Shown: positions 45,429-64,000 of the stretch, piece by piece
Layout of the letters: each line of letters starts with the position of its first letter
How positions within the stretch are numbered: position 1 is the first letter of the stretch
DNA from: Polyangium fumosum
GTDB taxonomy: Bacteria > Myxococcota_A > Polyangia > Polyangiales > Polyangiaceae
Length of the DNA stretch: 64,000 nucleotides
Reading direction: 5' to 3'
NCBI RefSeq assembly: GCF_005144585.1
Contig: NZ_SSMQ01000035.1
Coordinates: forward strand, 1 to 64,000
Made by a program: the position numbers and the translations under genes
Notes under the pieces: generated by a model
Told to the model about the DNA's origin: nothing
Database searches by the model: none
What the model saw: the letters and a program-made list of their open reading frames with translations, nothing else

Positions 45429-46025
45429 TCAGGAGTGCGGCGCGGCGGGCGCGGGCGGAGGCGGCTCCTTCGCCGGCATGTTCCGGCGAATGTAGAGCGC
45501 GGCGCCGGCGCCGATGAGCGCGGCCAGCACGACCGCGAGAATCCAGATCGCCGTCGCCGGGTTGCTTGCGGGCTCGGGGCGCGAGGAGACCTTCGCCGAC
45601 GAAGGCGCGCTGTGCGGCGCCGAATGCGGCACGAAGAGCGCGGACGGCGGGGCCGGGCGTGGGCTTGCCGGGCCGAACGGTGACATGAGCGCTTCGGGCG
45701 GCGCGGGGCGCTCGCCTGGAGCGAGCGGGGGTTTGGCGCGTCCGGGCGAGATGCGTACGGTGGGCATGCGCCGCGGGTCGACGCTGCTCGCGATGGCGAC
45801 CTTGCCTGCGGTCTCCGCGGGGTCCGGCACGTGCGCCGCGGGGAGCGCCGTGGGCCCCACATAGGCCCGCGCCTCGCGCTCGCCGCCGCCGACGAGGACG
45901 TTCGCTTGGTTCGGAGGGGCCGAGGGCCTGAGGACGGGGGGCGGCTCGGGCGACCCCCCCGCTCCGAACGAGGGATCGACGAGATCGCCGTCGTGCTCCG
46001 AATCCGAGGGTCTTCTCGAGCTCAT
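45429..46025 (-). CDS. Proline-rich protein with one C-terminal membrane helix
   Basis: The 198-aa protein starts MSSRRPSDSEHDGDL. The first 150 residues are low-complexity, rich in Pro, Ala and Ser, with no domain; a single helix follows (ATAIWILAVVLAALIGAGAALYI) and then a short proline-rich tail, RRNMPAKEPPPPAPAAPHS. Such tail-anchored disordered proteins are common in myxobacteria. No family recognised; topology probably N-in. Its promoter region faces the large signalling gene at 46419. Confidence 0.55.
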   Translation of the reverse strand: MSSRRPSDSEHDGDLVDPSFGAGGSPEPPPVLRPSAPPNQANVLVGGGEREARAYVGPTALPAAHVPDPAETAGKVAIASSVDPRRMPTVRISPGRAKPPLAPGERPAPPEALMSPFGPASPRPAPPSALFVPHSAPHSAPSSAKVSSRPEPASNPATAIWILAVVLAALIGAGAALYIRRNMPAKEPPPPAPAAPHS

Positions 46026-46418
46026 GCGTCTCTTCACGCACCCCCTCGTCGCCGCGCTCCGCGGCGGCGGCGCCGTCTCGACGACGGAAGCACGGGGGCA
46101 CTTTTTGCGTATCCCAGGCCCGCGAGGCCGCCAAGGGGGTATCGCGCGGCATGCGCCACTTTCCGCCCGCGCCGCTCCCGGGCCTCGTTCGCAGGGCTTT
46201 CGCGCGTGCGCATGGGACGACAGCCAACGCCGGCGGGATCACGTGCGCCCTGTCGTCAAGCTTCCGTTGATTTTTGCTCGCGTCCCTTGCACTCTGCGCT
46301 CTGGCGTCGCGTGGCGCCCACGCCCGCATCGGGCCTCTTTGCTCGGTGCGTCGTGGGGGTCGCCGGAGCGCCGCGGCGGCGCGAGCTTGCCGCTTTCGGA
46401 GCGCCGGAATCCACGGAC
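46026..46418. other. Divergent promoter region
   Basis: About 390 bp between divergent genes. I see no gene. Frames reading through from 45831 on the plus strand are extensions of the next gene without coding character. No convincing promoter hexamers or repeats are visible. Confidence 0.5.
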
Positions 46419-49400
46419 ATGAACCCGCTCGTCCCCGACTTCATCCTGTACCAGGACACGAGGGGGAGGACCGAAGGCAACTTCGCGGCGGCGGCGCTCT
46501 TCATCGACATCCCGGGCTTCACGAACCTGACGGAGAAGCTCTTCCCGCACGGCCGCGAGGGCGCCGAGATCCTCGCCGGCACGTTGCGCTTCTACTTCGA
46601 CCCGCTCATCGGCGCGGTGCACGAGCTCGGCGGGATCATCGTCGGCTTCGCGGGCGACGCGTTCACGGCCGTCTTCCCGCACTCGACGGGGCGCAACGTC
46701 GCCGAGCACGCGCTCGCCGCGGCGCTCAAGATGCGCCAGTTCTTCTTGAACCGCGCCGTCCGCGCGACGCGCTTCGGCACGTTCCCCTTCTCGTACAAGG
46801 TCGGCCTCTCGTGGGGCGCCGTCGAGTGGGGCATCGTCCGCACCTCGCCCGAGCGCGCGTACAGCTACTTCCGCGGCCCTGCGATCGACAAGTGCGCGTT
46901 GATCGAGCACCACGCCGAGAAGGGCGACATCCTCATGGATCTCGCCTTCCAGCAGCGCATCGCGGGCCGCGCCGTCACGCCCGTCGCCGAGGGCGTGCTC
47001 AAGCTCGCGGACACGTCCGACATGCCGCTACCGCCCGTGCCGCGCGTCCGCCCGCACGGCGAAGGCGCGCACTTCGTCCCGCCGGGCATCCGCGACATGC
47101 CGCCGCAGGGCGAGTTCCGCCACGTCACGAGCGTCTTCGTCTCGTTTGATCAGATCCCGAGCTTCGAGGACCTGATCAAGCTCGTCGACGTCGAGGCGAG
47201 CCGCTACGGAGGCACGTTCACGGGCGTCGACTCGGGCGACAAGGGCATCAACTGCTTGATCCACTTCGGCGCGCCGATCACGCACGAGAACGACACCGAG
47301 CGCGCGCTCGACTTCGCGCTCGGCCTCCGCAAGAACGCGCCGAAGGGGATGCAGATCCGCGCCGGCATCACCCACGGCCTCCGGTACGCGGGCTTCAACG
47401 GCGGCACCGAGCGGCAGGAGTTCGCGTGCCTCGGCCCCGCGACGAACCTCGCGGCGCGCCTCATGATGAGCGCGCCGTGGAAGGAGCTCTGGTGCGACGG
47501 CGAGGTCTCCGGGCGCGCCCAGGGCACGCACCACTTCAAGCCCGCGGGGGATCACCGCTTCAAGGGCTTCGAGCAGCCGATCAGCGTCTACACCCTCGAT
47601 CGCAAGCGCGTCGCCGTGCAGCGCGAGTTCCTCGCCCGCGGCCTCGTCGGGCGCGAGCAGGAGCTCGGGGTCCTCACGACGCACCTCGCCCCGATCTTCG
47701 CCGGCCAGAACGCGGGCATCGTCTACGTCGACGGCGAGCCGGGCCTCGGCAAGAGCTTCCTCGTCGACACGTACCGCCGCAAGCTCGAGGACAACAAGAA
47801 AGAGCGCCCGATCCTCTGGATCGACGCGCGTTGTGATCAGACGCTCCGGTCGAGCTTGAACCCCTTCGAGTACGCGCTGAAGGAGTACTTCGTCCAGACG
47901 TCGGCGACGGGCCGCGAGGAGAAACACGTCAACTTCGACGACGCCCTCGATCGCTTGATCGACCGCCTCCCGGACAGCGAGGCCCTGCTCAAGCGCGAGC
48001 TCGAAAAGGCCCGCAGCGTCTTCGCCGCGATGATCGGCATCCGCTGGGACGGCTCGGTCTACGAGCGCATGGATCCCAAGCTCCGCTTCGCCGGCACGCT
48101 CGCCGCGCTCTCGCTCTGGCTCCGCGCCGAGAGCCTCCTCCAGCCCGTGATCTTCCACCTCGAAGACGCGCACTGGGCCGACGGCGACTCGCTCGAAGCG
48201 GTCAGCCACGTCGCGCAGGCCGTCAAGGATTGCCCCGTCGCGATCCTCTGCACCTGCCGCAACAACGACGACGGCAGCCCCTTCCGCATCGAGCTCGACG
48301 AGAATGTCCCGCAGCACGCCGTCACGCTCGGCCCGCTCTCGCGCGACAAGCTGCGCGAGCTCGCCGAGGGCCTCATGGGCGGCCCCGTCTCCGAGGTGCT
48401 CGCCATGTTCCTGAGCGAAAACGCGAACGGCAATCCGTTCTTCGCGCAGGAGATCATGACGTACTGGCTCGAAGCGAATCAGCTCGCGGGCAAGAAGAAA
48501 GAGAAGGAGGACACGGGCGTCTCGACGCCGAGCATTTTCCTCCTCCCGAACGACGTCAACAGCCTGCTCATCGCGCGGCTCGATCGCCTCGAACCCAAGG
48601 TCAAGCGTGTCGTCCAGGCCGCCGCCACGCTCGGCCGCGAGTTCGATCTGCGCATCCTCTCGCGCATGATGGACGACGACCCGCTCTTGCCCGAGCTCGT
48701 CCGTGTCGGCGAGGAGCAGTGCATCTGGTCGCCCATTCTTGCGCATGGGGGCTACGCGCAGGCGAGCGGAGCTACGCCCCCAAACCCCCCGTCGAAGGGC
48801 CGCTACCGCTTCAGCAACGTGCTCTTGCGGAACGCGGCCTACGAGATGCAGTCCCGCGCGCGCTTGCAGGAGCTGCACCGCCGCGCGGCCGAGGCCATCG
48901 AGGTCGCGCACGAGGACGACCTCACGGGGCAGCTCACCGCGCTCGGGCGCCACTGGCAACGCGCCGGACAACCGAAGCGCGCCCGCTGGTACTTCCTCGC
49001 CGGCGCGCGCAAGGCCGCCGAGCGATACGCCCACGGCGAGGCCAAGCGCCTTTACCGCGCCTACTTCAAGCTCACGACCGAGCCCACGCTGGAGAGCGTC
49101 GTCGTGCGTTACGAGTTCGGCCGCGACGTCCTCGAGCTCCAGGGCCGGCACGAGGAGGCCATGCAGGAGCACGTGCGTGTCCTCGACGAGGCGCAGAAGC
49201 TCGGCGATCGCGCCTCCGAGGCGCTCGGCCTGCTCGGCCTCGGCCGCGTCAACTGGGCGACGGGGCGCATCGAGAGCGCGCGCGCCTTCTACGAGCAGGC
49301 GCTCACGACGGCGCGCGAGGCGCAGAGCTTGTGGAACGAGGGGCTCGCGCTGAAGAGCCTCGCGGTCTTGCACAAGGAGCAAGGCCGGTTCGAGCTCGCG

Positions 49401-49568
49401 CGCACCTTCTTCGAGCAGGCCCTCGACATCGCGCGCAAGGTCGGAAATCGCCGCGACGAGGGCAAGATCCTGAGTGACCTCGCCAGCCTGCACCACCAGC
49501 AGGGCCACGTGAACGAGGCCGTCGCGCTCCAGGAGCAGGCGCAAGCCATCGCTCGCGAGCTTGGCTGA
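46419..49568 (+). CDS. Dual class III cyclase-like / AAA ATPase / TPR signalling protein
   Basis: The 1049-aa protein begins MNPLVPDFILYQDTRGR. Cyclase-like domain 1 (about 18-190) keeps both metal Asp motifs, LFIDIPGFTNLTE and FAGDAFTAVF; domain 2 (about 230-400) has SVFVSFDQIPSFEDLI, lacking the first clear Asp, with GDKGINCLIHFG. An AAA/STAND-type ATPase follows with GEPGLGKS (439-446), LEDAHWADGDS and NPFFAQEI. TPRs fill the C-terminus (RASEALGLLGLGRVNWATG and onward). Residues about 776-791 are encoded by an inserted palindrome. It could make cAMP or use its cyclase folds as sensors; the neighbouring SulP protein has a cNMP-binding domain. Confidence 0.85.
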   Translation: MNPLVPDFILYQDTRGRTEGNFAAAALFIDIPGFTNLTEKLFPHGREGAEILAGTLRFYFDPLIGAVHELGGIIVGFAGDAFTAVFPHSTGRNVAEHALAAALKMRQFFLNRAVRATRFGTFPFSYKVGLSWGAVEWGIVRTSPERAYSYFRGPAIDKCALIEHHAEKGDILMDLAFQQRIAGRAVTPVAEGVLKLADTSDMPLPPVPRVRPHGEGAHFVPPGIRDMPPQGEFRHVTSVFVSFDQIPSFEDLIKLVDVEASRYGGTFTGVDSGDKGINCLIHFGAPITHENDTERALDFALGLRKNAPKGMQIRAGITHGLRYAGFNGGTERQEFACLGPATNLAARLMMSAPWKELWCDGEVSGRAQGTHHFKPAGDHRFKGFEQPISVYTLDRKRVAVQREFLARGLVGREQELGVLTTHLAPIFAGQNAGIVYVDGEPGLGKSFLVDTYRRKLEDNKKERPILWIDARCDQTLRSSLNPFEYALKEYFVQTSATGREEKHVNFDDALDRLIDRLPDSEALLKRELEKARSVFAAMIGIRWDGSVYERMDPKLRFAGTLAALSLWLRAESLLQPVIFHLEDAHWADGDSLEAVSHVAQAVKDCPVAILCTCRNNDDGSPFRIELDENVPQHAVTLGPLSRDKLRELAEGLMGGPVSEVLAMFLSENANGNPFFAQEIMTYWLEANQLAGKKKEKEDTGVSTPSIFLLPNDVNSLLIARLDRLEPKVKRVVQAAATLGREFDLRILSRMMDDDPLLPELVRVGEEQCIWSPILAHGGYAQASGATPPNPPSKGRYRFSNVLLRNAAYEMQSRARLQELHRRAAEAIEVAHEDDLTGQLTALGRHWQRAGQPKRARWYFLAGARKAAERYAHGEAKRLYRAYFKLTTEPTLESVVVRYEFGRDVLELQGRHEEAMQEHVRVLDEAQKLGDRASEALGLLGLGRVNWATGRIESARAFYEQALTTAREAQSLWNEGLALKSLAVLHKEQGRFELARTFFEQALDIARKVGNRRDEGKILSDLASLHHQQGHVNEAVALQEQAQAIARELG
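48744..48790 (+). repeat. Palindromic element embedded in frame in the cyclase/ATPase/TPR gene
   Basis: The element starts CATGGGGGCTACGC and ends GCTACGCCCCCAAACCCCCC. It encodes HGGYAQASGATPPNPP, interrupting ordinary sequence between WSPI and RYRFSN. It matches 63172-63214 closely at both ends and shares GCCCC(C)AAACCCC with 6907-6970. Confidence 0.65.
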
Positions 49569-49694
49569 GTTCAAACGAACGCTGTCCCGGGGGCGGCGGC
49601 TGTGGGCTCGGGGGCGACCATGTGCGCTGCTCTTGCCAGGGGCGCCCCTGTTCGCAGAAGATGGCGGCCCCCCGAGCTTCTCCCGACGACGACG

Positions 49695-51932
49695 ATGGAA
49701 GGGCAGCAGAGTCCGCCGATGCCTTCGACGCCCGCGCCCTCCCTCGGGCGTGGGCTCCGTGGATCGCGCGTCCTGTCCGGCCTCTTCGCGGGCGCCATGT
49801 CGGGCACCCTCGTCGCCACGTTCAGCATCACGCTCGCGGCGCTCATTTTCTCCGGCAATCTGACGAGGTACCTGCCGGCGGGCATCGGCATGGCCCTCGC
49901 GGGCTCGGCCATCATCGGCGCGATCGTCGCCCTCGGCAGCTCCTACCGCGCCGTCATCGCCGCGCCGCAGGAGAACACGGCCGTCGTCCTCGCCCTCGTC
50001 GCCTCGGGGATCGGCAGTCACATCACGGCCAAGGGCGGCGATCCTTTCCCCACGATCGTCGCGGTCTGCTCGCTCTCCGCGCTCGTCACGGGGGGCCTCT
50101 TCCTCGTCCTCGGCGGCCTTCGCCTCGGCACCCTCGTCCGCTTCATCCCGTACCCCGTCGTCGGCGGGTTTCTCGCGGGCACCGGATGGCTCCTCTTCAC
50201 GGGATCCATCTCGGTCATGGTGGGCACCGAGTTCTCCCTCGCGTCCTTGCCGCTGCTGCTCCGCGCGGATGCGATCGTCAACTGGGTCCCGGGCCTCACG
50301 CTCGGGCTCTTCTTGACGATCCTGCTCCGGCGCTACCACCACTTCCTGCTCTTGCCGGGCCTGCTCGTCTTCGCCGTCGCCATGTTTTACGGCGTCCTGT
50401 ACGCGGCGGGCGGCACCGTCGCCGAGGCCCTCGATCGCGGCATGCTCCTCGGCCCCTTCCCGAGCGGCGCCCTCTGGCCGCCGATGGCGCCATCCGAGGC
50501 GCTACGCATCGACTGGGCCGAGATCGGCGCGAACGCGGGCAACCTCTTCGCGATCACCATGCTCGCGACGATCTCGATCCTGCTCAACGCCTCGGGCCTG
50601 GAGATCGCGACCGAGCGCGAGATCGACCTCGATCGGGAGCTCCGCGCGACGGGCATCGCGAACCTCGCGGCGGGCCTCGGCTTCGGCATGGTCGGCTACC
50701 TCTCGCTCAGCGAGTCGACCTTGAACCACAAGGCCGGCGCCGAGAGCCGCATCGCGGGCATCCTCTCCGCGTGCATCTGCGCCGCGGCCCTCTTCTTCGG
50801 CGCCTCGGTCTTCTCGTACTTCCCGAAGCCCGTTCTCGGCGGCTTGCTCGTCTTCCTCGGCGCGGGTTTCCTCCTCGAAACCCTCTACGACTCCTGGTTC
50901 CGCCTCCCGCGCGTCGAGTACGGCCTCGTCGTCATCATCCTCGTCGTCATCGCCTGGATCGGCTTCCTCCCGGGGATCGGCGTCGGCATCGTCGTCTCCT
51001 CCGTTCTCTTCGCGGTCAACTACAGCCGCATCGACGTCATCAAGCGCGCGGCGGTCGGCTCCGACGTCCGCAGCAACGTCGAGCGCAGCGCCGGGGACGA
51101 GCTCACGCTGGAGGAGCGCGGCAGGGAGCTCTACATCCTCCAGCTCCAGGGCTACATCTTCTTCGGCACTTCGTACACGCTGCTCAAGCGCGTGCACCAC
51201 CGCATGCTCAGCGAAGATCCCGCTCCCACGCGGTACGTCCTGCTCGACTTCCGTCACGTCGACGGCATCGACTCCTCCGCCGTCCTCTCCTTCGTCCGCC
51301 TGCGCAAGCTCGCCGTGTCGAACGGCGTCACGCTCGTGCTCACCGACCTCCCGAGCGCCGTCCGCAACCAGCTCGAACGGGGCGGGTTTGCCGACGGATC
51401 GAGGCGCGTCCGTTTCTTCCCCGACCTCGATCATGGCCTCGAGTGGTGCGAGAACGAGGTCTTGCGCGCGGCGCCGCCGAGCCTGCTCCCGCCGACGAAG
51501 CTCATCGACGAGCTTGATCGTGTCTTCCGCACCCGCGAGTTCGTCGCGGGCTTCCTCGAATACCTCGAACGTGTCGAGGCGCCCGCGGGCTACCAGATCT
51601 ACCGCCAGGGCGACGTTTCGAAGGACCTCTACCTCATCGAGTCCGGCGAGCTCACGGCCTGGCTCGAGCTCGACGGCGGCAAGACCAAGCGCCTGCGCAC
51701 GATGGGCCCGGGCACCGTCGTCGGTGAGTCGGGCCTCTACCTCGGCACGCGCCGCTCGGCCACGGTCGTCACCCTCCGGCCCACGGTCCTCTATCGCCTC
51801 TCGCTCGGCGCGCTCGAGCGCATGACGCGCGAAGCGCCGCACCTCGCGGCCGCGTTCCACCAGTTCGTCGCTTGCCTGCTCGCCGAGCGGATGGTCCTCG
51901 CGACGGGCGCATCAAAGACCCTCTTCAACTGA
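49695..51932 (+). CDS. SulP anion transporter with STAS and cyclic-nucleotide-binding domains
   Basis: Start placed at MEGQQSPPMPSTP; the frame is open to 49602. The 745-aa protein has a SulP membrane core of about 12 helices (SGLFAGAMSGTLVATFSITL, QENTAVVLALVASG, FIPYPVVGGFLAGTGW), a STAS domain (ILQLQGYIFFGTSYTLLKR, LDFRHVDGIDSSAV) and a C-terminal cNMP-binding domain (GYQIYRQGDVSKDLYLIESG, GTVVGESGLYLGTRRSATV). SulP proteins carry sulfate, bicarbonate or similar anions. The cNMP domain suggests gating by cAMP or cGMP. Upstream by 126 nt is a cyclase-domain protein, which could be the source of the signal. Confidence 0.9.
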   Translation: MEGQQSPPMPSTPAPSLGRGLRGSRVLSGLFAGAMSGTLVATFSITLAALIFSGNLTRYLPAGIGMALAGSAIIGAIVALGSSYRAVIAAPQENTAVVLALVASGIGSHITAKGGDPFPTIVAVCSLSALVTGGLFLVLGGLRLGTLVRFIPYPVVGGFLAGTGWLLFTGSISVMVGTEFSLASLPLLLRADAIVNWVPGLTLGLFLTILLRRYHHFLLLPGLLVFAVAMFYGVLYAAGGTVAEALDRGMLLGPFPSGALWPPMAPSEALRIDWAEIGANAGNLFAITMLATISILLNASGLEIATEREIDLDRELRATGIANLAAGLGFGMVGYLSLSESTLNHKAGAESRIAGILSACICAAALFFGASVFSYFPKPVLGGLLVFLGAGFLLETLYDSWFRLPRVEYGLVVIILVVIAWIGFLPGIGVGIVVSSVLFAVNYSRIDVIKRAAVGSDVRSNVERSAGDELTLEERGRELYILQLQGYIFFGTSYTLLKRVHHRMLSEDPAPTRYVLLDFRHVDGIDSSAVLSFVRLRKLAVSNGVTLVLTDLPSAVRNQLERGGFADGSRRVRFFPDLDHGLEWCENEVLRAAPPSLLPPTKLIDELDRVFRTREFVAGFLEYLERVEAPAGYQIYRQGDVSKDLYLIESGELTAWLELDGGKTKRLRTMGPGTVVGESGLYLGTRRSATVVTLRPTVLYRLSLGALERMTREAPHLAAAFHQFVACLLAERMVLATGASKTLFN

Positions 51933-51951: not shown

Positions 51952-54057
51952 ATGAACATCCTCCCGAGGCTCCTCTGCACGGCGACGATGGCCGGGACGC
52001 TCCTCGCGCCGCGCCTCGCGTCGGCCGACGGCGCGCTCCGCACGGTCCTCGTCATCGACGCCTCCTCGTCGATGCGCGGCACCGATCCCAAGGAGCTCCG
52101 CAAGGTCGCGGCCGAGCTCTTCGTCGACCTCACGCGGAGCGGCGACGAGCTCGCGGTCGTTGGCTTCGACGGCGCCGCGCGCGACGCCATGGCCTCGCTC
52201 GTCGTCGTGCGGACCCCCGACGATCGCGCCGAGATCAAGCGCGCCGTCCGCGCCGTCGGCAACGACGGCAACTGGACCGATTTCACCGCCGGCCTCGAAG
52301 GCGCGCGCCGCCTCCTCGAGGCCAAGCCGCGCGCCCCGGGCGACCAGGACCTCATCGTTTTCCTCACGGACGGCCGCTGTGATCCCGACCCGCGTGGCCC
52401 GCTGGCAGACGCCGCGCGCGCGTCCGGCGGCAAGGCCCGGGTCGAACAAGTTTGTCAGGCCAAGGTTCTCGACGACCTCGTCCCCTCCCTCGGGAAAACC
52501 CGTATCTACGCCGTCGGGTTGTCCAAGAGCGCCCCCCGCGCCTTCCTCGACGACCTCGGCCGCCGCACGGGGGGCATTGGCGTCGCGACGGACCGCCCCG
52601 ACGAGCTCCCGCGCCTCTTCGCCGACATCTACGCCCGCCTCTTTGGCAGCCGCCTCTCCGAGGGCGCGTCCGCGCCTTCGATCTCGGTCCCCGTCGACGA
52701 AGGGGCGAGCTCGCTCGACCTCGTCCTCGTCGGCCCCCCAAAGCTCGGCATGCGCCTCTTCGACCCGAAGGGCGCGGAGGTCTCCACCACGGGCGACCGT
52801 CCCGGCGTGTATTTCTCGGACAACCCTGCGTACCGCCTCCTGCGCCTCGACGCCCCCGAGCCCGGCGCGTATCGCCTCGACGTCGCCGGCGGCGGCACCG
52901 GCGGCCGGTATGCGGTCCTGCAAAACCTCGACTTGCATCTCGCATTCCCGGGTTTGCCTGAGGTCCTCGAAATCGGCAAGAGCGCCACCCTGAAGCTCCG
53001 CCTCGCCACCCCGGGCGGCAAAGCCCCCTCGAAGACCTTCCTCGACCGCCACGCGTTTTCCCTCGCGGCCGTGGAAGGCGTGAACGCCTGCGACGACGTG
53101 GCCCTCGCCGCGGCGGCCCCCATTCCCCTCCGCGCGCTCCCGGACGGCTCGTTCGAGGCCACGATCACGCCCTCGAAAAAGGGTGCCTTGTGCCTCCTCG
53201 GCCGCATGAGCCCGGGGGAATCCGGCGTCCTCACGCGCGAGACGCGCAGCGCCGCCGTCCGCGTCATTCCTCCGATTCACCTGAAGGCCACCCTCACCAC
53301 GCCGTTTGGCGTGATGAAACAAGGCACCGTCAACACCGCGTCGATCTCCCTCGAAGGCAGTGAGGTCGGCGAGCTCATCTTCGCCGATATCGAAAAGGAA
53401 GGCCTCGCCCCGGGGATGTCCCTCTCGCGCCGCGACGTCGAGATTGGCCCTGCCACGGCCAAGCGCCTCGATATCGCCCTCGTCGTCGGCCGCGACGCGC
53501 CCCCGGGCCCGCGCGAGATCACGCTCCGCATCGTCCCCAAGAAGCCGCAGGGCTTCGAGGATCGCGCGGTCACCGTCCGCGTCCCGGTCACGATCGTCCC
53601 GCTCACGTTTTGGGAGCGATATGGCCGCACCCTTCAAGGCGGCCTCCTCTGCCTCTTTACCTTGTTCTTGGTCCTCGGCCTCATGCTCCCGGCGCGATTC
53701 CGGCGCACGGCGATCCTCCATTACGAAGATCGCCGCGACCCCGATCTCCCGCGCCAGGCCAAGTTCCCGCTCGGGGCCAAGGCGCGCGCGGGTCTTTATC
53801 GATCGGCGCGTGTCACCGTCGGCCCGATGGGCCCCGTGCTGCGCGGCGGCGTCGTCGAGCTCCGCGCCGGCCCCGGCGGCGCCGTCCTCGCCCGTCCTGC
53901 GGCGGGCAAACGCGCGACGGAGCTCCCGCGCGACGACGATTTCAGCGCGGGCGAGCCCCGCGAGCCCCGGCTCGTGAAAGGCTGGTTCCGCGTCTCTCCG
54001 GGGGTGAAATACGCGATCGAGGGGACGGGGCTCGTCTTCTGGTGGAATCCGCGGTAG
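51952..54057 (+). CDS. Membrane-anchored VWA-domain protein
   Basis: The 701-aa protein has a signal peptide (MNILPRLLCTATMAGTLLAP) and a VWA domain with MIDAS DASSS (36-40), NWTDFTAGLEGAR and IVFLTDGRCDPD, showing an intact metal site. A long region of beta-sandwich-like repeats follows, then a single membrane helix (GGLLCLFTLFLVLGLML) near residue 575 and a cytoplasmic C-terminal domain (from about 590). This places the VWA outside the inner membrane. It follows the SulP gene by 19 nt. VWA genes commonly neighbour large tubulin-like genes, and one lies 3.5 kb downstream. Confidence 0.85.
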   Translation: MNILPRLLCTATMAGTLLAPRLASADGALRTVLVIDASSSMRGTDPKELRKVAAELFVDLTRSGDELAVVGFDGAARDAMASLVVVRTPDDRAEIKRAVRAVGNDGNWTDFTAGLEGARRLLEAKPRAPGDQDLIVFLTDGRCDPDPRGPLADAARASGGKARVEQVCQAKVLDDLVPSLGKTRIYAVGLSKSAPRAFLDDLGRRTGGIGVATDRPDELPRLFADIYARLFGSRLSEGASAPSISVPVDEGASSLDLVLVGPPKLGMRLFDPKGAEVSTTGDRPGVYFSDNPAYRLLRLDAPEPGAYRLDVAGGGTGGRYAVLQNLDLHLAFPGLPEVLEIGKSATLKLRLATPGGKAPSKTFLDRHAFSLAAVEGVNACDDVALAAAAPIPLRALPDGSFEATITPSKKGALCLLGRMSPGESGVLTRETRSAAVRVIPPIHLKATLTTPFGVMKQGTVNTASISLEGSEVGELIFADIEKEGLAPGMSLSRRDVEIGPATAKRLDIALVVGRDAPPGPREITLRIVPKKPQGFEDRAVTVRVPVTIVPLTFWERYGRTLQGGLLCLFTLFLVLGLMLPARFRRTAILHYEDRRDPDLPRQAKFPLGAKARAGLYRSARVTVGPMGPVLRGGVVELRAGPGGAVLARPAAGKRATELPRDDDFSAGEPREPRLVKGWFRVSPGVKYAIEGTGLVFWWNPR

Positions 54058-54317: not shown

Positions 54318-54389
54318 TCCCGCGACGATCGTGGCCCGGGGCGGCGGCACAGAATCATCACACCCAACGACGATACCATCGAGGTGAAT

Positions 54390-54908
54390 ATGACGACGAA
54401 TCGAGAACTGGGGTATTTGTGGTCGCTCAAGCAGAAGTGCAACGTTGACAAATTGCCGACGCTCGAGGCGTATGATGGCTATCTGAAGGCGATTCTCACG
54501 TGCGCCAATGGAGATGGCAACCTGACGCCCGCAGAAAGAGAGTGGGTGATCGGGCATGGGTCTGCGGTGGGCGCGCTCGACTCGTTGCTGGACGAGCTCA
54601 AGACCTACAAGGCCGACGAAGACATCGAGAAGCTGCTCGCCATGAGCCCGCAGGCGGATGCTTCACGGCGCGTCCTCATTTACGACGCGGTTCGAGCTTG
54701 CAGCGCCGATGGGGAATACAACGACCGGGAAAAGGCCACGGTGCGCAAGATGGGCGCGAAGCTCGGGATTTCCGAGGATTTGATCCGCCAGATCGAAGAC
54801 GTCGCCCTCGAAGAAGCCCGACTGTGGGAGCGACGGGTGAAGCTCGTGTATCCGGCGGGGACGCCTCCGACGCTGCGCGTGGACACCCCCTCGTCCGACC
54901 CGGCCTGA
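54390..54908 (+). CDS. TerB-like (tellurite-resistance/DjlA-N type) helical protein
   Basis: The 172-aa protein starts at an ATG preceded by GAGGTG; a GTG at 54384 is in frame. It has two TerB-type helical segments, each with a short acidic turn: LTCANGDGNLTPAEREWVIG (EF-hand-like) and ACSADGEYNDREKATVRKMG, followed by LGISEDLIRQIEDVALEE. TerB folds bind metals or act in membrane-stress complexes. The gene is flanked by Q direct repeats and has its own copy of the P promoter region. Base composition is a little lower in GC than its neighbours. Confidence 0.7.
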   Translation: MTTNRELGYLWSLKQKCNVDKLPTLEAYDGYLKAILTCANGDGNLTPAEREWVIGHGSAVGALDSLLDELKTYKADEDIEKLLAMSPQADASRRVLIYDAVRACSADGEYNDREKATVRKMGAKLGISEDLIRQIEDVALEEARLWERRVKLVYPAGTPPTLRVDTPSSDPA

Positions 54909-57366: not shown

Positions 57367-57502
57367 TTCCTGGATCGGAACAGAAGCGCCGAACGCCTGT
57401 CAATGCAGCGGTCGGGATCAGGCTGCGCCCCTTCGCCTTTGTCGGAGCCCTGACCGCCCCAGGACCAGGCCGACGTTCACGACTGCGCCACGCGCCGCCG
57501 CC

Positions 57503-57561
57503 GCCTGGAAAGATCCGCTTTCCACGGCCCTTCTGTCTCTGGTACGCTCTGCGCCCCCCGC
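57503..57561 (+). promoter_or_regulatory. P2: promoter region of the tubulin-like operon (59-bp repeat copy 2)
   Basis: Contains TTTCCA (57519-57524) and TACGCT (57543-57548) with 18-nt spacing; transcription would begin near 57555, about 27 nt before the ATG, with GGGGAGGGG as ribosome site. A GG-N10-GC pattern (57541-57554) also occurs, so sigma-54 use cannot be excluded. P1 at 54220 is the same sequence with six changes. Confidence 0.45.
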
Positions 57562-57581
57562 TCTCGGGGAGGGGAAATCGC

Positions 57582-60500
57582 ATGCCGCTCAGCGAAAAGA
57601 AGATCGCCCCCGCGTTTTTCATTGGCCTCGGGGGCGCGGGAGGCGCCATCGTCGACGAGCTCGCCCGCAAGGTGAAGCAGGAAGACTCGTTCGAGCGATA
57701 CAAGGACCTCGTTCACTTCTTCGCGTTCGACACCGACGCCGACGACCTCGCGCGGCTCGTCTGGATCGACGCGGCCCACAAGTTCGTCCTGTCGGACTTC
57801 GACAAGCCCGAGTACGTCGAGCTCAAGCGTGGAAAGCTCCACGCCAAGCCCGATCCCCTCTTCGAGCAGTGGTGGCCCGCGTGGTATCAGCCCCGCGCGC
57901 ACCGCGGCAAGGGCGCCGGCCAGATTCGCATCGAGAGCCGCCTCTCGCTCTACCACCACCTCGAAAACGATCGCGCCAAGATCCTCGAGACCCTGGAGAA
58001 GGCGATCCGGCGCGCCTACGACGTCCACAACCCCTTCCGCGCCAACAAGGCCGCCAAGATCCACATTTATGCCTCCCTCGCCGGCGGCACCGGCTCCGGC
58101 GGCTTCGCCACGATGGCGCTCACGGTCCGGCGCCTCCTCGGCGGCCAGCGTGGGCATCGCATCATCGGCACGTTCGTCCTGCCGAACGTCTTCCGCGGCA
58201 AGGGCCTGCCGCCGAACCAGTTCGACAAGATCATGTCGAACGGTTATGCGGCCCTGCAGGAGCTCGAGCTGCTCCAGAGCGCCAGCCCCGCCGCGCCCGC
58301 CCGTTTCCACTACGACCCGGACAACCCCGAGCGTGTCCTCGTCGACCGGCCGCCGTTCGATCAGGTCTATCTCGTCGAAGAGAAGACCGAGAGCGGCGTC
58401 GTTCTCGCCGACTCGCAGGAGGTCTACCCTGCGATTTCCGACGCCGCGCACGCGCAGATCTTTACTTCCATCCTCGATCGCGAGGGCTCGACGCTCGACA
58501 ACGACACGCGCGAGCTCATGCAGCTCGACGAGCAGGCCTTCACGAAGTCGTTTGGCTCCTTCGGCATCGGCGCGCTCGTCCTGCCCGTGGAGGACGTCCT
58601 CGAACACGCGGCCTTGAAGCTCGGCGCGGAGCTCTTGCTCGCGGCCGTGCCCGGGGGCAGCGCGGCCCTCGGCGACGGCGCCGATCTCGACGCGGCCGAT
58701 CAGGCCTTCGTTCGCGGCCTCGAGAGCAAGGCCGAAGGCAAGGGCGAAGAGTCCGAGCCGTATCGCCGCGCCGTCGAGTGGGCGCGCGGCGGCGGCAGCG
58801 GCGGCGAGGGCACGATCGGCGCGTTCCTCCGCCGCACGCGCGAGGACGTCGCCAAGCGCATCGACGAGGCCATCAAGCTGCGCGGCTGGGACGAGGCCGA
58901 GCTCTCGGCGTTCGAGCGCGACCCCGAGCGCGTCCGCTCCGAGACCGCGCAGGCCTTCGCCGCGCTCAAGGTCCAGGTCGGCAAAAGCGAGGACGCCGCG
59001 CGCGAGCGTGCGCGCGAGGCGGCGTTGCGCGTCGCGGCCGAGTCCGGCGAGCTCTCGCTCACCGAGCTCGCGAAGGACAAGGGCCCGACCGAGGCGCGCT
59101 ACTTCCACGCCTTGCTCCGGCAGGCCGTCGCGGCCGAGCAGGAGACGGCGCGCAAGGCCTACGAGCGTGGCCTCGTCCTCACGGACGGCCGCCTCGGCGA
59201 GGACTTCAAGCGCCGCGTCGACGAGCTCGCCGCGGCCGCGCCCGAGACGCTGCTCGAAAAACTCCCGGGCCGGGAAAACGATTACTTCGAGGTCGCCGCC
59301 TCCTTCGCCGGCTGGTATCGCGACGTGCTCGACGGCCTGCGCGCCCGTATCCGCGCGAATGCCTTGATCGAATACTTCTCGGCTGTCCTGCGCGAGCTCG
59401 ATCGCCGCCGTTTGTCGAGCTTCCATTTCTTCGCGCGGGTCGATCGCATTCAGCGCCGCCTCGAAGAGCGCGCGGCTCGTATCGTCGCCGCGGGCGGCCG
59501 GCGGCACGAGGGCGGCGACGCGAATCGTTACGTCCTCGATGTCGAGGTCCTCCAGGATCACCGCACCGGCCGTCGCTTGTGGGATCACCTTTATGCGCGC
59601 CTCGTGCGCCCGAGTGATCTCCAGCTCTCCGGCGCGCTCTCGCGCCTCGCGACGGTCGCGAGCCAGGGCGGTGCGGAACAGGACATCGAGCGCCGCATCA
59701 TCGACGACCTCGTGCAGCTCGCCTCGGCCGCGCTGCGCGCCCGCATCGCGGGCGGCCTCGAAGAGCGCGGTTTGCGTATCGACGAAGAGCTTCGTTTCGA
59801 GGCCCAGCTCGTCTCGGCCACGCGCAGGCTCGAGCGCCGCGGCGGCCCGCTCCCGCCCGCGTCCGATCCGCAGTGGATCGAGGAAGCGCGCCGCACGCCC
59901 GAGGATGAAATCCAGAAATACGTCAAGGACAAGCTCGAATTCGCGGCTGCGAAATGCGCGCCTTTCCTGACGCTCGGCGCGGGCGCGCCGCTCCTGCCCG
60001 ACAAGGCGTACGTCGTCATGCACGGCGATTACGAGCGCACGCTCGGGCCCATGCTCGCGCACCTCGCCACGCACCGCGTCGATCGTGGCCAGATCGTCGC
60101 TTCGGACCACCCGTACGAGATCATCTTCTACCTCGCGCGGCTCGGCTGCCCGCTGCACGCCGTGAAGAGTTTGTCCGATTATGAGCGCCGGTACCGCGCC
60201 GTGAAGGACAAGGAACTCGCCGAGGGCGCGAAGGTGCCGGGGTTGCCCAAGGGCGTCCCGCAGATCCCGCTGCACATCGATCGCAACTGGGAGGGCGCGC
60301 CGGACACGGAGACGCGCCTCTTCCGCATCTCGATCGACGGCGTGCGCGAGAACGACTCCAAGCTCGCCTGGACCGAGCGGCTCTCGCATGTCCAGAAGAA
60401 GGCCAGCGAGGAGCAGGTCCGCACGGACGACATCCGGGATTTCACGCTCGCCATTGCGTTTGGTATCATCCGCCGCACCGAGGGCGTCTACCTGATCGAG

Positions 60501-60800
60501 GACCCGGACCTCCCGGAGGAGCGCCGCAAGCTCGGCAAATTCCGCGACCAGGCCTTTACGAGTTACAGCGGCCGTATCGACGCGCAAAAGACCTGGGTGC
60601 GTCGCGCGTATGCCGCAGCGCTCCTCCGGATCGAGGAAGACCGCAACCTCGCCGCGCTCGTCTCGCTCGTCGCGGCGCACGTCGCCGACATCGAGCGCCT
60701 GGTCAAGCTCGCCGACGGTGCGGGCGGCAAACCCGAGCTCGACCACCTCGCCCGCGAGCTCGAATGCCTCGCGGGGTTCCGCCGGGAAAAAGGGCTCTGA
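57582..60800 (+). CDS. Large tubulin/FtsZ-like protein (Tubulin_2 type)
   Basis: The 1072-aa protein starts KKIAPAFFIGLGGAGGAIVD, a glycine-rich Rossmann-type loop (GLGGAGG at 15-21), and carries the tubulin/FtsZ signature as SLAGGTGSGGFATMAL (GGTGSGG at 168-174). FDTDADDL and RIESRLSLYHHLEN fit the GTP-binding half, and the middle segment PNVFRGKGLPPNQFDKIMSN is characteristic of large tubulin-like bacterial proteins. About 600 further residues are helical. Such families are thought to form GTP-dependent filaments at membranes and often neighbour VWA and membrane-protein genes. It has no membrane segment itself. First of a three-gene operon. Confidence 0.85.
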   Translation: MPLSEKKIAPAFFIGLGGAGGAIVDELARKVKQEDSFERYKDLVHFFAFDTDADDLARLVWIDAAHKFVLSDFDKPEYVELKRGKLHAKPDPLFEQWWPAWYQPRAHRGKGAGQIRIESRLSLYHHLENDRAKILETLEKAIRRAYDVHNPFRANKAAKIHIYASLAGGTGSGGFATMALTVRRLLGGQRGHRIIGTFVLPNVFRGKGLPPNQFDKIMSNGYAALQELELLQSASPAAPARFHYDPDNPERVLVDRPPFDQVYLVEEKTESGVVLADSQEVYPAISDAAHAQIFTSILDREGSTLDNDTRELMQLDEQAFTKSFGSFGIGALVLPVEDVLEHAALKLGAELLLAAVPGGSAALGDGADLDAADQAFVRGLESKAEGKGEESEPYRRAVEWARGGGSGGEGTIGAFLRRTREDVAKRIDEAIKLRGWDEAELSAFERDPERVRSETAQAFAALKVQVGKSEDAARERAREAALRVAAESGELSLTELAKDKGPTEARYFHALLRQAVAAEQETARKAYERGLVLTDGRLGEDFKRRVDELAAAAPETLLEKLPGRENDYFEVAASFAGWYRDVLDGLRARIRANALIEYFSAVLRELDRRRLSSFHFFARVDRIQRRLEERAARIVAAGGRRHEGGDANRYVLDVEVLQDHRTGRRLWDHLYARLVRPSDLQLSGALSRLATVASQGGAEQDIERRIIDDLVQLASAALRARIAGGLEERGLRIDEELRFEAQLVSATRRLERRGGPLPPASDPQWIEEARRTPEDEIQKYVKDKLEFAAAKCAPFLTLGAGAPLLPDKAYVVMHGDYERTLGPMLAHLATHRVDRGQIVASDHPYEIIFYLARLGCPLHAVKSLSDYERRYRAVKDKELAEGAKVPGLPKGVPQIPLHIDRNWEGAPDTETRLFRISIDGVRENDSKLAWTERLSHVQKKASEEQVRTDDIRDFTLAIAFGIIRRTEGVYLIEDPDLPEERRKLGKFRDQAFTSYSGRIDAQKTWVRRAYAAALLRIEEDRNLAALVSLVAAHVADIERLVKLADGAGGKPELDHLARELECLAGFRREKGL

Positions 60801-60815
60801 GGCCCCGGGGGGCGC

Positions 60816-63227
60816 GTGCGCGGAATCGACGATCGAACGAGGCGCCCCACGCTGCTCGTCGGCGTGGGCGCCTTCGGCCGTGACGTCGCGCGCGCGGCCC
60901 GCGGCGCCTCGCTCGTCGCGCTCGACGTCGCCCTCGGCGCGGACGGCAAAACGGACGGCGCCGCGCTCGATCCTTCCGCGAAAGATCCATATACGCCCGT
61001 CGTGAAGCGCGCCGAGGACGCCCTCGCCGCGCTGCTCGACGTCGGCCATTACCTCGGCTCCTCGTCCCCCACGGACCCGCGTGGCCCGCTCTGCGACGTC
61101 CTCGTCGTCGCCGACCTCGGCGAGTCGTCCGTCGCGCCCCTCGTCGCGCCCCTCGCCGCCGCGCTCGCCTCGGGCCTGCGCCGCGCCTTTTCGGCCATCC
61201 TCCGCTCCGGCGACGGCGCGCTCGTCGTTTGCCCCCTCCTGGTTTGCCCCCGCGCCGGCGATCGAGCCGTCATGGCGCGCGCCGCCTCGTCCCTCGCCGA
61301 GCTGTCCCGCCAAACCTCCTCCTCGGCGCGCGCGCGCCTCGGCGGCCGCGTGTATCTCGTCGAGGACCAGAGCGGCAAATACCTCCTCTCCCGCGCCGAG
61401 ATGGTCCGCTCCTTTGCCGCGTTCCTCTCGACCTTGTGCTTGCCGCCCGTGCGCGACGACGATCGCGGCGTTCGTCGCCTCGTCGAGGACGACGGGCCGC
61501 CGGGCACCTTCGCCACCTTTGCCTGCGCGAGCCTCGTCTTTGATCACGCGGCGCTCTCACGGATCGCTGCTGCGCGCCTCGGCCGCGAAATCCTCGCGCT
61601 CCTCCGCGCGCCCGTGGATCCGGCCGCGCTCGACATTGCCTCGCTCGCCGCGCCGCTCGTCCCCACGCAGAGCCGCCTCGACACCGAGCTCGGCGAGGCC
61701 GAGCCGCTCGCCGAATGGCTCGCGCCGCCGACGATCGACGTCCCCCCGATCGAATGGGACGACGATCCCGAGACGCTCCTCGAACGCAAATTCGGCTCCC
61801 TCTACCGGGCGCGCGCCGAGGCCACGATCGCCGCGTTCCGGGACGAGGTCGAGCGGTTCCGCATGGACAAACTCGCGGCCGCGCTCGAACAACGCGGCAA
61901 GGTCCGCCTCGAAGGCGGCGCGCGCGCCATCGAGACGCGTGTCGCCGAGCTCGTCGCCGAGCGCCCCACGGGCCACGCGCGGGCGCTCTTGGTTTTACGG
62001 GACGCACGCACCCGGGCCAAGGGGTACCTCGACGAGGTCGTCCGCGCGATCGAGGCGCCCGAGCTCTCGCCGCTCCCGGCCTCGCCGCTCGCGGAAAAAC
62101 TCGCGGCCCTGGAGGAGGCCATCTCCTACCGCCCGCGCCCGCGCCGCATGGTCGTCCTCGGCGCGGCCCTCGGCCTCGTCTCCGCGCTCCTCCTCTCGGG
62201 CGTGCTCGTCTCTTCCTATCGCGCCCTGCTCGCGCCTTTCCCACCTTTTTTCGACGCCGTCTCGCCTTTGCCGGCCGGCCGCCTCCGCCCTTTTTTCACC
62301 CCGCCCGTCCCGCTCCTCGCCGGCGTCGCCCTCTCGGCCTATTCGACGGGCTATCGGCTCTGGAAGCACCGCAAACGCCACCACAACTGGGCCTGCGAAG
62401 CCAGGGACGACCTCGCGCAGTCGATCGCGCGGCACATCCGCGAAGACCTCGTCGGCCATTACGAGCGCCGCTTGCATTACGCGCGCCTCCTCTGGGTCCA
62501 GCGCGTCCTCGCCCACCTCCTCGGCCGCATCGAGCAGGCCCTCGCCGCCCTCGAAGCCACGCGCGCAGCCCTCGCCGCCGCCGACCGCGCCTTGCACCGC
62601 GAAGAACACGAGGGCGAGCGAAACCTCTTTTCCGGGGGCATGCTCGCCTCCTCGGTCTTGCACGCCTCCATCGTCGGCCCCGACGACGTCGACGCCATTT
62701 ACGCTGAAATTCGCCCGCCCGAGCCGAGCGCCGCGGCCGAACGCTGGCTCCGCGAGAGCCTCGCCGAGCGCCCCTGGACCGAGGCACCGTTCGCGGCGCA
62801 CGACGACCTCCTCGCCTTTTGCCGCGCCGAGCTCGAATCCTTCGAGAAGACCTCGCCCTTCGAGGAAGGCAAATCCGCGCTGCACAAGGCTGCCGAAGCC
62901 TCGGCCAAGGGCTTCCTCCGCCGCCTCTTCCTCAAGCTCTCGCCCGGCCTCGAGCTCGCCCCGAAATATGCGGCCGAGGCACCCGCTCCGCTCCGTCTCC
63001 TCTTCGCGCCGCCCGAGGCGCGCAAGCTCGTCGACGCCACGCTCGCCGAGGGCGGCTTCGAGGGCGCCTGGGACGTGCGCGCGCTCTCTCCGGATCCCGG
63101 TTCGATCCTGCTCGTCGTCGCGCGCACCGGCCTGCCGCTCGAAGCGCTCGCCCTCGCGCAGCCAGACGATGGGGGTTCCGCTCGGACGAACCGAGCTGCG
63201 CCCCCAAATCCCCCGGAGGAATCGTGA
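60816..63227 (+). CDS. Membrane protein with a tubulin-like N-terminal fold, operon partner
   Basis: The 803-aa protein starts (GTG) with RRPTLLVGVGAFGRDVARAARG, a degenerate version of the GLGGAGG loop in the preceding protein (GVGAFGRD at 16-23), and continues with a Rossmann-like layout (DVLVVADLGESSVAPLVAPL). It lacks the GGTGxGG signature and so probably does not hydrolyse GTP. Two membrane helices (about 445-467 and 500-520) lie in the middle; the C-terminal 280 residues are helical and soluble. It may anchor or cap the tubulin-like filaments. It starts 15 nt after the first gene; its last 18 residues come from an inserted palindrome. Confidence 0.65.
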   Translation: MRGIDDRTRRPTLLVGVGAFGRDVARAARGASLVALDVALGADGKTDGAALDPSAKDPYTPVVKRAEDALAALLDVGHYLGSSSPTDPRGPLCDVLVVADLGESSVAPLVAPLAAALASGLRRAFSAILRSGDGALVVCPLLVCPRAGDRAVMARAASSLAELSRQTSSSARARLGGRVYLVEDQSGKYLLSRAEMVRSFAAFLSTLCLPPVRDDDRGVRRLVEDDGPPGTFATFACASLVFDHAALSRIAAARLGREILALLRAPVDPAALDIASLAAPLVPTQSRLDTELGEAEPLAEWLAPPTIDVPPIEWDDDPETLLERKFGSLYRARAEATIAAFRDEVERFRMDKLAAALEQRGKVRLEGGARAIETRVAELVAERPTGHARALLVLRDARTRAKGYLDEVVRAIEAPELSPLPASPLAEKLAALEEAISYRPRPRRMVVLGAALGLVSALLLSGVLVSSYRALLAPFPPFFDAVSPLPAGRLRPFFTPPVPLLAGVALSAYSTGYRLWKHRKRHHNWACEARDDLAQSIARHIREDLVGHYERRLHYARLLWVQRVLAHLLGRIEQALAALEATRAALAAADRALHREEHEGERNLFSGGMLASSVLHASIVGPDDVDAIYAEIRPPEPSAAAERWLRESLAERPWTEAPFAAHDDLLAFCRAELESFEKTSPFEEGKSALHKAAEASAKGFLRRLFLKLSPGLELAPKYAAEAPAPLRLLFAPPEARKLVDATLAEGGFEGAWDVRALSPDPGSILLVVARTGLPLEALALAQPDDGGSARTNRAAPPNPPEES
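63172..63214 (+). repeat. Palindromic element forming the 3' end of the 60816 gene
   Basis: Starts GATGGGGGTTCCGCTCGG and ends CCGAGCTGCGCCCCCAAATCCCCC, pairing GGGGG, C and GCTCGG. It encodes DDGGSARTNRAAPPNPPEES with its flank, and the gene's stop follows directly. Strong match to 48744-48790. Confidence 0.7.
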
Positions 63228-64000
63228 TCGACGCGCTCCTCACGCTCCTCGGCGAATTGTCGCGCCTCGCCCAGGCCAAACCCATTCGCACGAGCCTCGG
63301 CGGCATGGCCGTCGCCCTCGCGATCCTCCTTTACCTCGGTGCCCTCGCCAAAGCTCGCTTCGAGCTCCGCGCCGTCCGCGTCTCCACCGGCCCTCTTTTT
63401 GCGCTCGCCGGCCTCGTCGTCCTCGCGCTCTCGCTCGTCGTGGCGCTCGTCGACGCCCTGCTCGCCCATTACGACATGCTCCTCATCGAGGAGCGCGTGC
63501 TTTTGCTCCTCGCGCCGGGGGAGGGGTGGGAAGCTTATGAGGCCTTGCGCCGGATCCTCGCCCTCGCCGCGGGTGGGCGATTCATGCTCCCCGGCCCCGT
63601 GCATGTGCCGCTCGCCTTGCTCCTCGGCGCCGTGGTGTACCTCGGCCTCGTGTTCTGGGCCGCGCGCACGCTCGAAGAGCTCGGCTCGCTCGAACAGAAG
63701 CCCGACGACGTCCTCGCGCGCGAGCGGCTCGAACAGCAAAAAGCCATCGCCAAGGCCCTGGCCGAGGGGCGGCCGCTCCCGGTCAAACCCGTCGAGAGCG
63801 CGCCGCTCGCCGACGATCGCTTCGGCCGCGTCTTCAAGCTCCTCGGCCACTGGACGAGCGTCGAATACGTCGAGGCGCGTTTCGTGCGCTGGCAAGGCCC
63901 GCTCGTGTGGGCCCTTTCCGGCCTCGCCGCGCTCGCCCTCCCGGCTGCGCTCGCGGGGCATTTCCCAGCCCCGCTCTGGGTCGGCGCTGCGATTGCGCTC
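63224..64000 (+). CDS. Polytopic membrane protein of the tubulin-like operon, 5' part
   Basis: The frame starts at a GTG overlapping the previous stop (GTGA) after GGAGGAATC and runs off the window after 259 codons. It has at least four membrane helices: GGMAVALAILLYLGALAKAR, TGPLFALAGLVVLALSLVVALVDALLA, HVPLALLLGAVVYLGLVFWAA and LVWALSGLAALALPAALAGHF. A cytosolic loop between helices 3 and 4 is charged (EQKPDDVLARERLEQQKAIA). No family is recognised. Coupled translation with the tubulin-partner gene suggests that the three products form one membrane complex. Confidence 0.75.
   Translation, partial: MIDALLTLLGELSRLAQAKPIRTSLGGMAVALAILLYLGALAKARFELRAVRVSTGPLFALAGLVVLALSLVVALVDALLAHYDMLLIEERVLLLLAPGEGWEAYEALRRILALAAGGRFMLPGPVHVPLALLLGAVVYLGLVFWAARTLEELGSLEQKPDDVLARERLEQQKAIAKALAEGRPLPVKPVESAPLADDRFGRVFKLLGHWTSVEYVEARFVRWQGPLVWALSGLAALALPAALAGHFPAPLWVGAAIAL

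Follow-up and report, generated by a model that had tools for sequence, protein, structure and literature searches.

The 64,000-nucleotide (nt) stretch of DNA analysed here, which we call the window, spans positions 1 to 64,000 of contig NZ_SSMQ01000035.1 in the draft genome (~13 Mb) of Polyangium fumosum (assembly GCF_005144585.1). Near its right-hand end lie genes for a tubulin-family GTPase (TUB), for a membrane protein best described as a pseudotubulin (G2), and for a membrane protein related to DNA helicases (HEL), with a gene for a membrane VWA protein upstream. The first-pass annotation, made from the sequence alone, had joined the three downstream genes by their spacing, and correctly so. 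The stop codon of TUB (1072 amino acids, aa) is separated by 15 nt from the GTG start codon of G2 (803 aa), and the end of G2 overlaps the beginning of HEL, at 63224, in the tetranucleotide GTGA. HEL crosses the end of the window; when the contig is read onward, the gene ends at 66607 and encodes 1127 aa. Two other open reading frames separate the VWA gene from TUB in P. fumosum; in other Polyangium species, the gap between these genes is ~0.1–2.3 kb. A long antisense frame (57477–61547, minus strand) fails the codon-position filter and was rejected as a high-GC artefact.

Table 1. The four genes of the set, their positions in the window, and the evidence by which each was assigned.
Gene product	Position	Strand	Evidence
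VWA protein (signal-like N-terminus, VWA domain, one membrane helix, tail)	51952–54057	+	Pfam, MIDAS, membrane helix, synteny
TUB, Tubulin_2/FtsZl1 GTPase with helical insertion	57582–60800	+	Pfam, AlphaFold2, VIA, invariant residues
G2, membrane-embedded pseudotubulin (best description)	60816–63227	+	AlphaFold2, Foldseek, VIA, hhalign, family motif count
HEL (first 777 nt; the gene runs on to 66607)	63224–64000	+	Pfam MZB, PDB 6znp, motifs

TUB matches the Pfam Tubulin_2 profile with 167.3 bits (cut-off 27; E 7.6e-49), and the two glycine-rich loops noticed in the first pass are the GTP-binding loops T1 (GLGGAGG, which fits the pattern GGxG[GS]) at residues 15–21 and T4 (GGTGSGG) at 168–174. 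The T4 sequence GGTGSG is present in all 41 family members aligned, and the glycines of both loops are invariant across that alignment, as is a DN pair at residues 306–307 that may be T7-like: it lies where tubulin and FtsZ would have their T7 loop, to judge from the order of the elements rather than from superposition. The AlphaFold2 (AF2) model of TUB (predicted local distance difference test, pLDDT, 86.2) is closest to CetZ in VIA (Z 23.2, root-mean-square deviation, rmsd, 3.8 over 308 residues), and its agreement with structures of the tubulin superfamily runs from residue 8 to about 889–928. The fold is broken by a helical insertion of ~450 aa with model helices up to ~70 residues long, and because the match reaches so far along the chain, a C-terminal tubulin domain appears to be present in the model beyond the insertion. 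In FtsZl1 proteins, the GTPase domain is followed by a long coiled coil and a vWA gene lies nearby, and both hold for TUB. No other Tubulin_2 protein was found in the genome, which encodes a canonical FtsZ separately; TUB is therefore unlikely to be the division tubulin. The gene is 95–96% identical in named Polyangium strains. Some loci (L124–L127, L130, L145 and L149) encode longer variants—a tubulin of ~1260 aa and, where complete, a pseudotubulin of ~1180–1520 aa—in which the insertion is enlarged, and at another, L061, there is a fragment resembling the tubulin gene with three stop codons (G089:C2:383808-384113), possibly a pseudogene copy.

The first pass had proposed that an active-looking tubulin is paired here with a signature-less, membrane-anchored one, G2. 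This pairing holds up, and nothing else in the locus is as novel. A Tubulin_2 profile, one of the checks it had suggested for both proteins, finds TUB alone: G2 matches nothing in Pfam or NCBIfam (E up to 1), and its link to the tubulins comes instead from predicted structure and from comparison with the TUB family by hhalign (E 3.2e-5, probability 72.8, ~96 columns). The aligned columns lie at the end of the GTPase domain, over its last strands and helices, and correspond to the same region of TUB. Neither the TUB nor the G2 alignment, used as a profile against PDB sequences, brought up anything of use. The N-terminal T1-like loop of G2, GVGAFGRD (residues 16–23), becomes GxGxFG in the family as a whole, with a glycine lost in several lineages. 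The T4 loop GGTGSG occurs in none of the 36 family members—DLGES replaces it in P. fumosum—and among these members no DN motif is conserved. The signature loop GGGTG[ST]G is absent, and so we file G2 as a tubulin fold rather than as a tubulin GTPase.

The suggestion that structure prediction should reveal a tubulin fold in G2 was borne out. The AF2 model (pLDDT 81.7; predicted template modelling score, pTM, 0.67) finds TubZ in Foldseek with probability 1.00, and PhuZ is also among the fold matches. In VIA, every one of the 50 rows shown is a chain of the tubulin superfamily (Z 17.4–19.4), and the best is CetZ (Z 19.4 over 276 residues, model range 9–792). The model suggests a GTPase-like domain at ~9–265, a tubulin C-terminal domain at ~690–790, and ~420 residues between them that carry a coiled coil or long helices and a membrane hairpin (~442–472, and from 498 on, to ~520); the membrane segment begins at 442. 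Most G2 relatives have one or two membrane segments near 430–530. On the strength of these models, G2 is best described as a complete tubulin fold, a membrane-embedded pseudotubulin, and its tubulin origin is supported along three lines: the hhalign profile match, the predicted structure, and the position of the gene, which adjoins TUB in every clear case. In Acidobacteriota and gammaproteobacteria, a divergent set of G2 proteins has an N-terminal GYGxYG or something close to it; by hhalign, the homology of this set extends along the entire protein (probability 99.6, E 1.8e-24). Foldseek matches of G2 to AhlB/SmhB pore toxins and to dynamins, with rmsd of ~30–57 Å, reflect the long helices and were rejected.

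HEL had been described as a polytopic membrane protein. About four N-terminal membrane helices are indeed there, but they are merely the first part of a larger, helicase-like protein, and are followed by an MrfA/YprA-like superfamily 2 helicase region. Against YprA (PDB 6znp; E 1.1e-18), the RecA1 region, part of RecA2 and the MZB domain align, and the C-terminal MZB zinc-binding domain is recognized by Pfam over its cut-off (E 1.7e-8). Its cysteines are retained in several HEL lineages but lost in a large clade of Polyangiales. Walker A is intact in P. fumosum (TPPLSGKT) but lost in most relatives, and where the DExH box should be, the P. fumosum protein reads PDLE. No DExH (motif II), SAT (motif III) or QxxGRxGR (motif VI) was seen in the aligned HEL relatives, while canonical helicase paralogs from the same order keep all of these, and because of this difference HEL is, judged by its motifs, a family of membrane pseudo-helicases. 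The reading of HEL as an active helicase was rejected on the same motifs. For HEL, PADLOC gave only weak helicase-like matches.

The upstream protein, too, is as first described: its VWA domain (Pfam VWA_2, E 1e-11; VWA, E 5e-10) keeps an intact metal-ion-dependent adhesion site (MIDAS), with the sequence DASSS at residue 36, and there is one membrane helix, near residue 560. A signal-like segment precedes the domain and a tail of ~120 aa forms the C-terminus. The gene sits upstream of the tubulin gene in relatives as well, and belongs to the conserved set with TUB, G2 and HEL. Three acidobacterial or gammaproteobacterial loci (L137, L143, L146) have three or four tandem VWA genes in this place.

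How far the set is conserved was judged from 80 loci gathered from public genomes by conserved tubulin motifs, with neighbours counted over the testable loci by profiles built from family members, which may miss very divergent copies. On this basis, TUB is followed directly by G2 in 55 of 67 loci; HEL is found downstream in 34 of 48, and upstream there is a VWA gene in 40 of 67. The order VWA–tubulin–pseudotubulin–pseudohelicase was to be looked for among relatives in the Polyangiales; it extends well beyond them, recurring across Myxococcota and in Acidobacteriota and, in a less complete form, in some gammaproteobacteria, in whose loci HEL is not always found. Lineages with the module include Polyangium, Plesiocystis (locus L092), Enhygromyxa, Archangium, Lujinxingia, and Thermoanaerobaculia and other Acidobacteriota. 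Within the order, TUB was found in 25 of 140 genomes, and G2 has matches in nine of 145, every strong one adjoining a TUB gene; HEL matches beside TUB in the nearest relatives score far above background helicases. Around the module, genes encoding protein kinases, PP2C phosphatases and FHA proteins turn up repeatedly.

Other genes lie nearby in P. fumosum. Directly upstream of the VWA gene is one for a SulP-type sulfate transporter with STAS and C-terminal cyclic-nucleotide-binding domains (49602–51932, plus strand), apparently kept in this place in other Polyangium species, and adjoining it is one for a 1245-aa protein with adenylate/guanylate cyclase, AAA and TPR domains (45831–49568, plus strand). 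Between the VWA and TUB genes lies a small TerB-like protein (54384–54908, plus strand; Pfam TerB, E 7e-4, below the cut-off) with a weak PADLOC match to PDC-S48. Because the match is weak, and the gene was not found at this place in the gathered loci of related species, we left it out of the module. Directly 3′ of HEL on the contig is a large protein without a Pfam match (66420–69119, plus strand); a gene with a similar start follows HEL in another Polyangium (L062), and none was seen there in other genera.

Sequence and predicted structure together show that a soluble TUB with intact GTP loops, a signature-less G2 with a hairpin, a pseudo-helicase and a membrane VWA protein are inherited together. 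What might such a set do? Like the first-pass annotation, we infer a filament or remodelling machine, and the form of it that we favour, with about even chances of being right, is a conserved, membrane-docked tubulin machine in which a GTP-driven TUB polymer or switch docks on non-hydrolysing G2 in the membrane and is gated by VWA from outside the cytoplasm. In its favour we count the Tubulin_2 match and invariant loop glycines of TUB, the tubulin folds predicted for both proteins, the hhalign link between them, the loss of GGTGSG from the G2 family, the conserved gene order, and the recurring kinase, PP2C and FHA neighbours. TUB would bind and hydrolyse GTP, and self-assemble or switch as it does so. 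G2, unable to hydrolyse GTP, would stack on TUB through the longitudinal interface of tubulins and serve as a seed, cap or adaptor held in place by its membrane anchor, much as gamma-tubulin, or the non-hydrolysed site of alpha-tubulin, does by analogy. HEL would be a structural platform or docking module of DNA-helicase descent, the VWA domain would sense a ligand outside the cytoplasm and gate assembly, and the most likely outcome would be that the inner membrane or the envelope is organized or remodelled locally. We put forward more tentatively, with the odds rather against it, that this is a new class of tubulin pair, in which a soluble GTPase tubulin assembles from a catalytically dead transmembrane one with its hairpin inside the fold, on a pseudo-helicase platform and under VWA control from outside: a membrane-nucleated bacterial tubulin cytoskeleton apart from division.

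Several points weigh against a membrane-docked machine of this kind. The membrane segments were placed by means of a simple hydropathy scan and the helices of the AF2 models. The ~450-aa insertion in TUB might block ordinary protofilaments. A correlation among the distance matrices of the three proteins TUB, G2 and HEL (rho 0.60–0.79, 0 of 2000 permutations) speaks for co-inheritance, but plain vertical descent alone would produce it too. And the patchy distribution of TUB suits a structural role no better than an accessory or conflict function. The last point leads to the most serious alternative, which is that the set is a conflict or stress-response complex, and that TUB, by assembling at the membrane, carries out an effector or signalling step once VWA senses an invader or envelope damage. 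Conflict systems with tubulin and vWA components have been proposed by Kaur et al. (2020; PMC7159879, tubulin section), and besides the patchiness, the kinase and PP2C neighbours in several loci and a DO-GTPase2 gene in one relative locus (L144) would suit this reading. We nonetheless consider it unlikely. No effector domain was recognized, PADLOC has no match for TUB, G2 or VWA, and DO-GTPase2 and GAP1-M have none anywhere in the draft genome, although both searches recovered the control, Corynebacterium glutamicum (other GAP1/DO-GTPase models were not searched genome-wide).

The helicase ancestry of HEL raises another idea, that HEL still binds DNA at the membrane and that TUB moves or partitions it, in the way that TubZ does plasmids. 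The kinship with YprA/MrfA is consistent with this, as are the MZB zinc domain in P. fumosum and several relatives, the intact Walker A of P. fumosum, and the presence of TubZ and PhuZ among the fold matches. With motifs II, III and VI missing throughout, Walker A gone from most relatives, the MZB cysteines lost in a large clade, and no DNA-binding adaptor of the TubR kind recognized in the cluster, we think a DNA-handling machine quite improbable. More improbable still, to the point that we give it little credence, is that G2 is an ordinary Rossmann-type nucleotide-binding membrane protein that shares just a GxGxxG loop with TUB. Such loops are common in Rossmann folds, Foldseek weakly lists short-chain dehydrogenases for the full G2 model, and the hhalign match to TUB, at 73% probability, spans just ~96 columns. 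That match falls on the corresponding region of TUB, however, all of the VIA rows shown are of the tubulin superfamily, and the structural alignment, from residue 9 to ~790, includes a C-terminal domain that Rossmann dehydrogenases lack.

If G2 and HEL are parts of a membrane-docked tubulin machine, they extend a story that is already partly told. FtsZl1 proteins are widespread, and we know of no function assigned to them since 2010. In that year, the FtsZl1 (Tubulin_2)/vWA operon was presented as a predicted membrane-remodelling system (Makarova & Koonin 2010; PMC2875224), and as its main text describes them, those FtsZl1 proteins share with TUB an N-terminal GTPase domain, a long coiled coil and a helical C-terminus. 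A vWA gene in the operon and many uncharacterized membrane proteins are further likenesses, and the alignment given there includes a member from the myxobacterium Plesiocystis pacifica. Neither T6–H7 elements nor a C-terminal tubulin domain were detected in FtsZl1 in that account, whereas the present models place such a domain after the insertion. The words 'helicase' and 'DUF1998' are absent from the main text, which, its supplementary tables aside, appears to describe no second, degenerate tubulin; families left unnamed in those tables may be the same as G2 and HEL.

Kaur et al. (PMC7159879) placed tubulin/vWA systems among GTPase-centric conflict systems of the GAP1-N2 type. The tubulin section of their paper describes tubulin-domain proteins with a coiled-coil extension beside membrane vWA proteins, as here, and versions from Firmicutes with two tubulin genes; the theme as they draw it is one of Firmicutes and Actinobacteria, built on DO-GTPases and GAP1, and that section describes neither a membrane-hairpin tubulin nor a pseudo-helicase. 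At an Oscillospiraceae (Firmicutes) locus that we inspected, both of the paired tubulins keep GGTGSG, and G2 is therefore a different kind of partner.

Tubulin-fold proteins that work together, one of them possibly a non-hydrolysing partner, are familiar from gamma-tubulin, from BtubA/BtubB and from other paired tubulins. Unlike these, G2 has its tubulin fold interrupted by a membrane hairpin and has no T4 loop, and HEL differs from MrfA/YprA (6znp) in its N-terminal membrane helices and in belonging to a family without DExH, SAT or QxxGRxGR. Literature searches for a degenerate membrane tubulin in combination with a tubulin-linked pseudo-helicase returned nothing relevant. The pairing of tubulin with vWA has thus been published already, and it is the inactive membrane tubulin and the pseudo-helicase that appear to be newly recognized core parts. 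With these two linked to it, the system becomes a defined four-protein unit that can be reconstituted, with clear residues to mutate, and G2, which would be an unusual transmembrane tubulin fold, bears on how bacterial tubulins are tethered to membranes and nucleated there.

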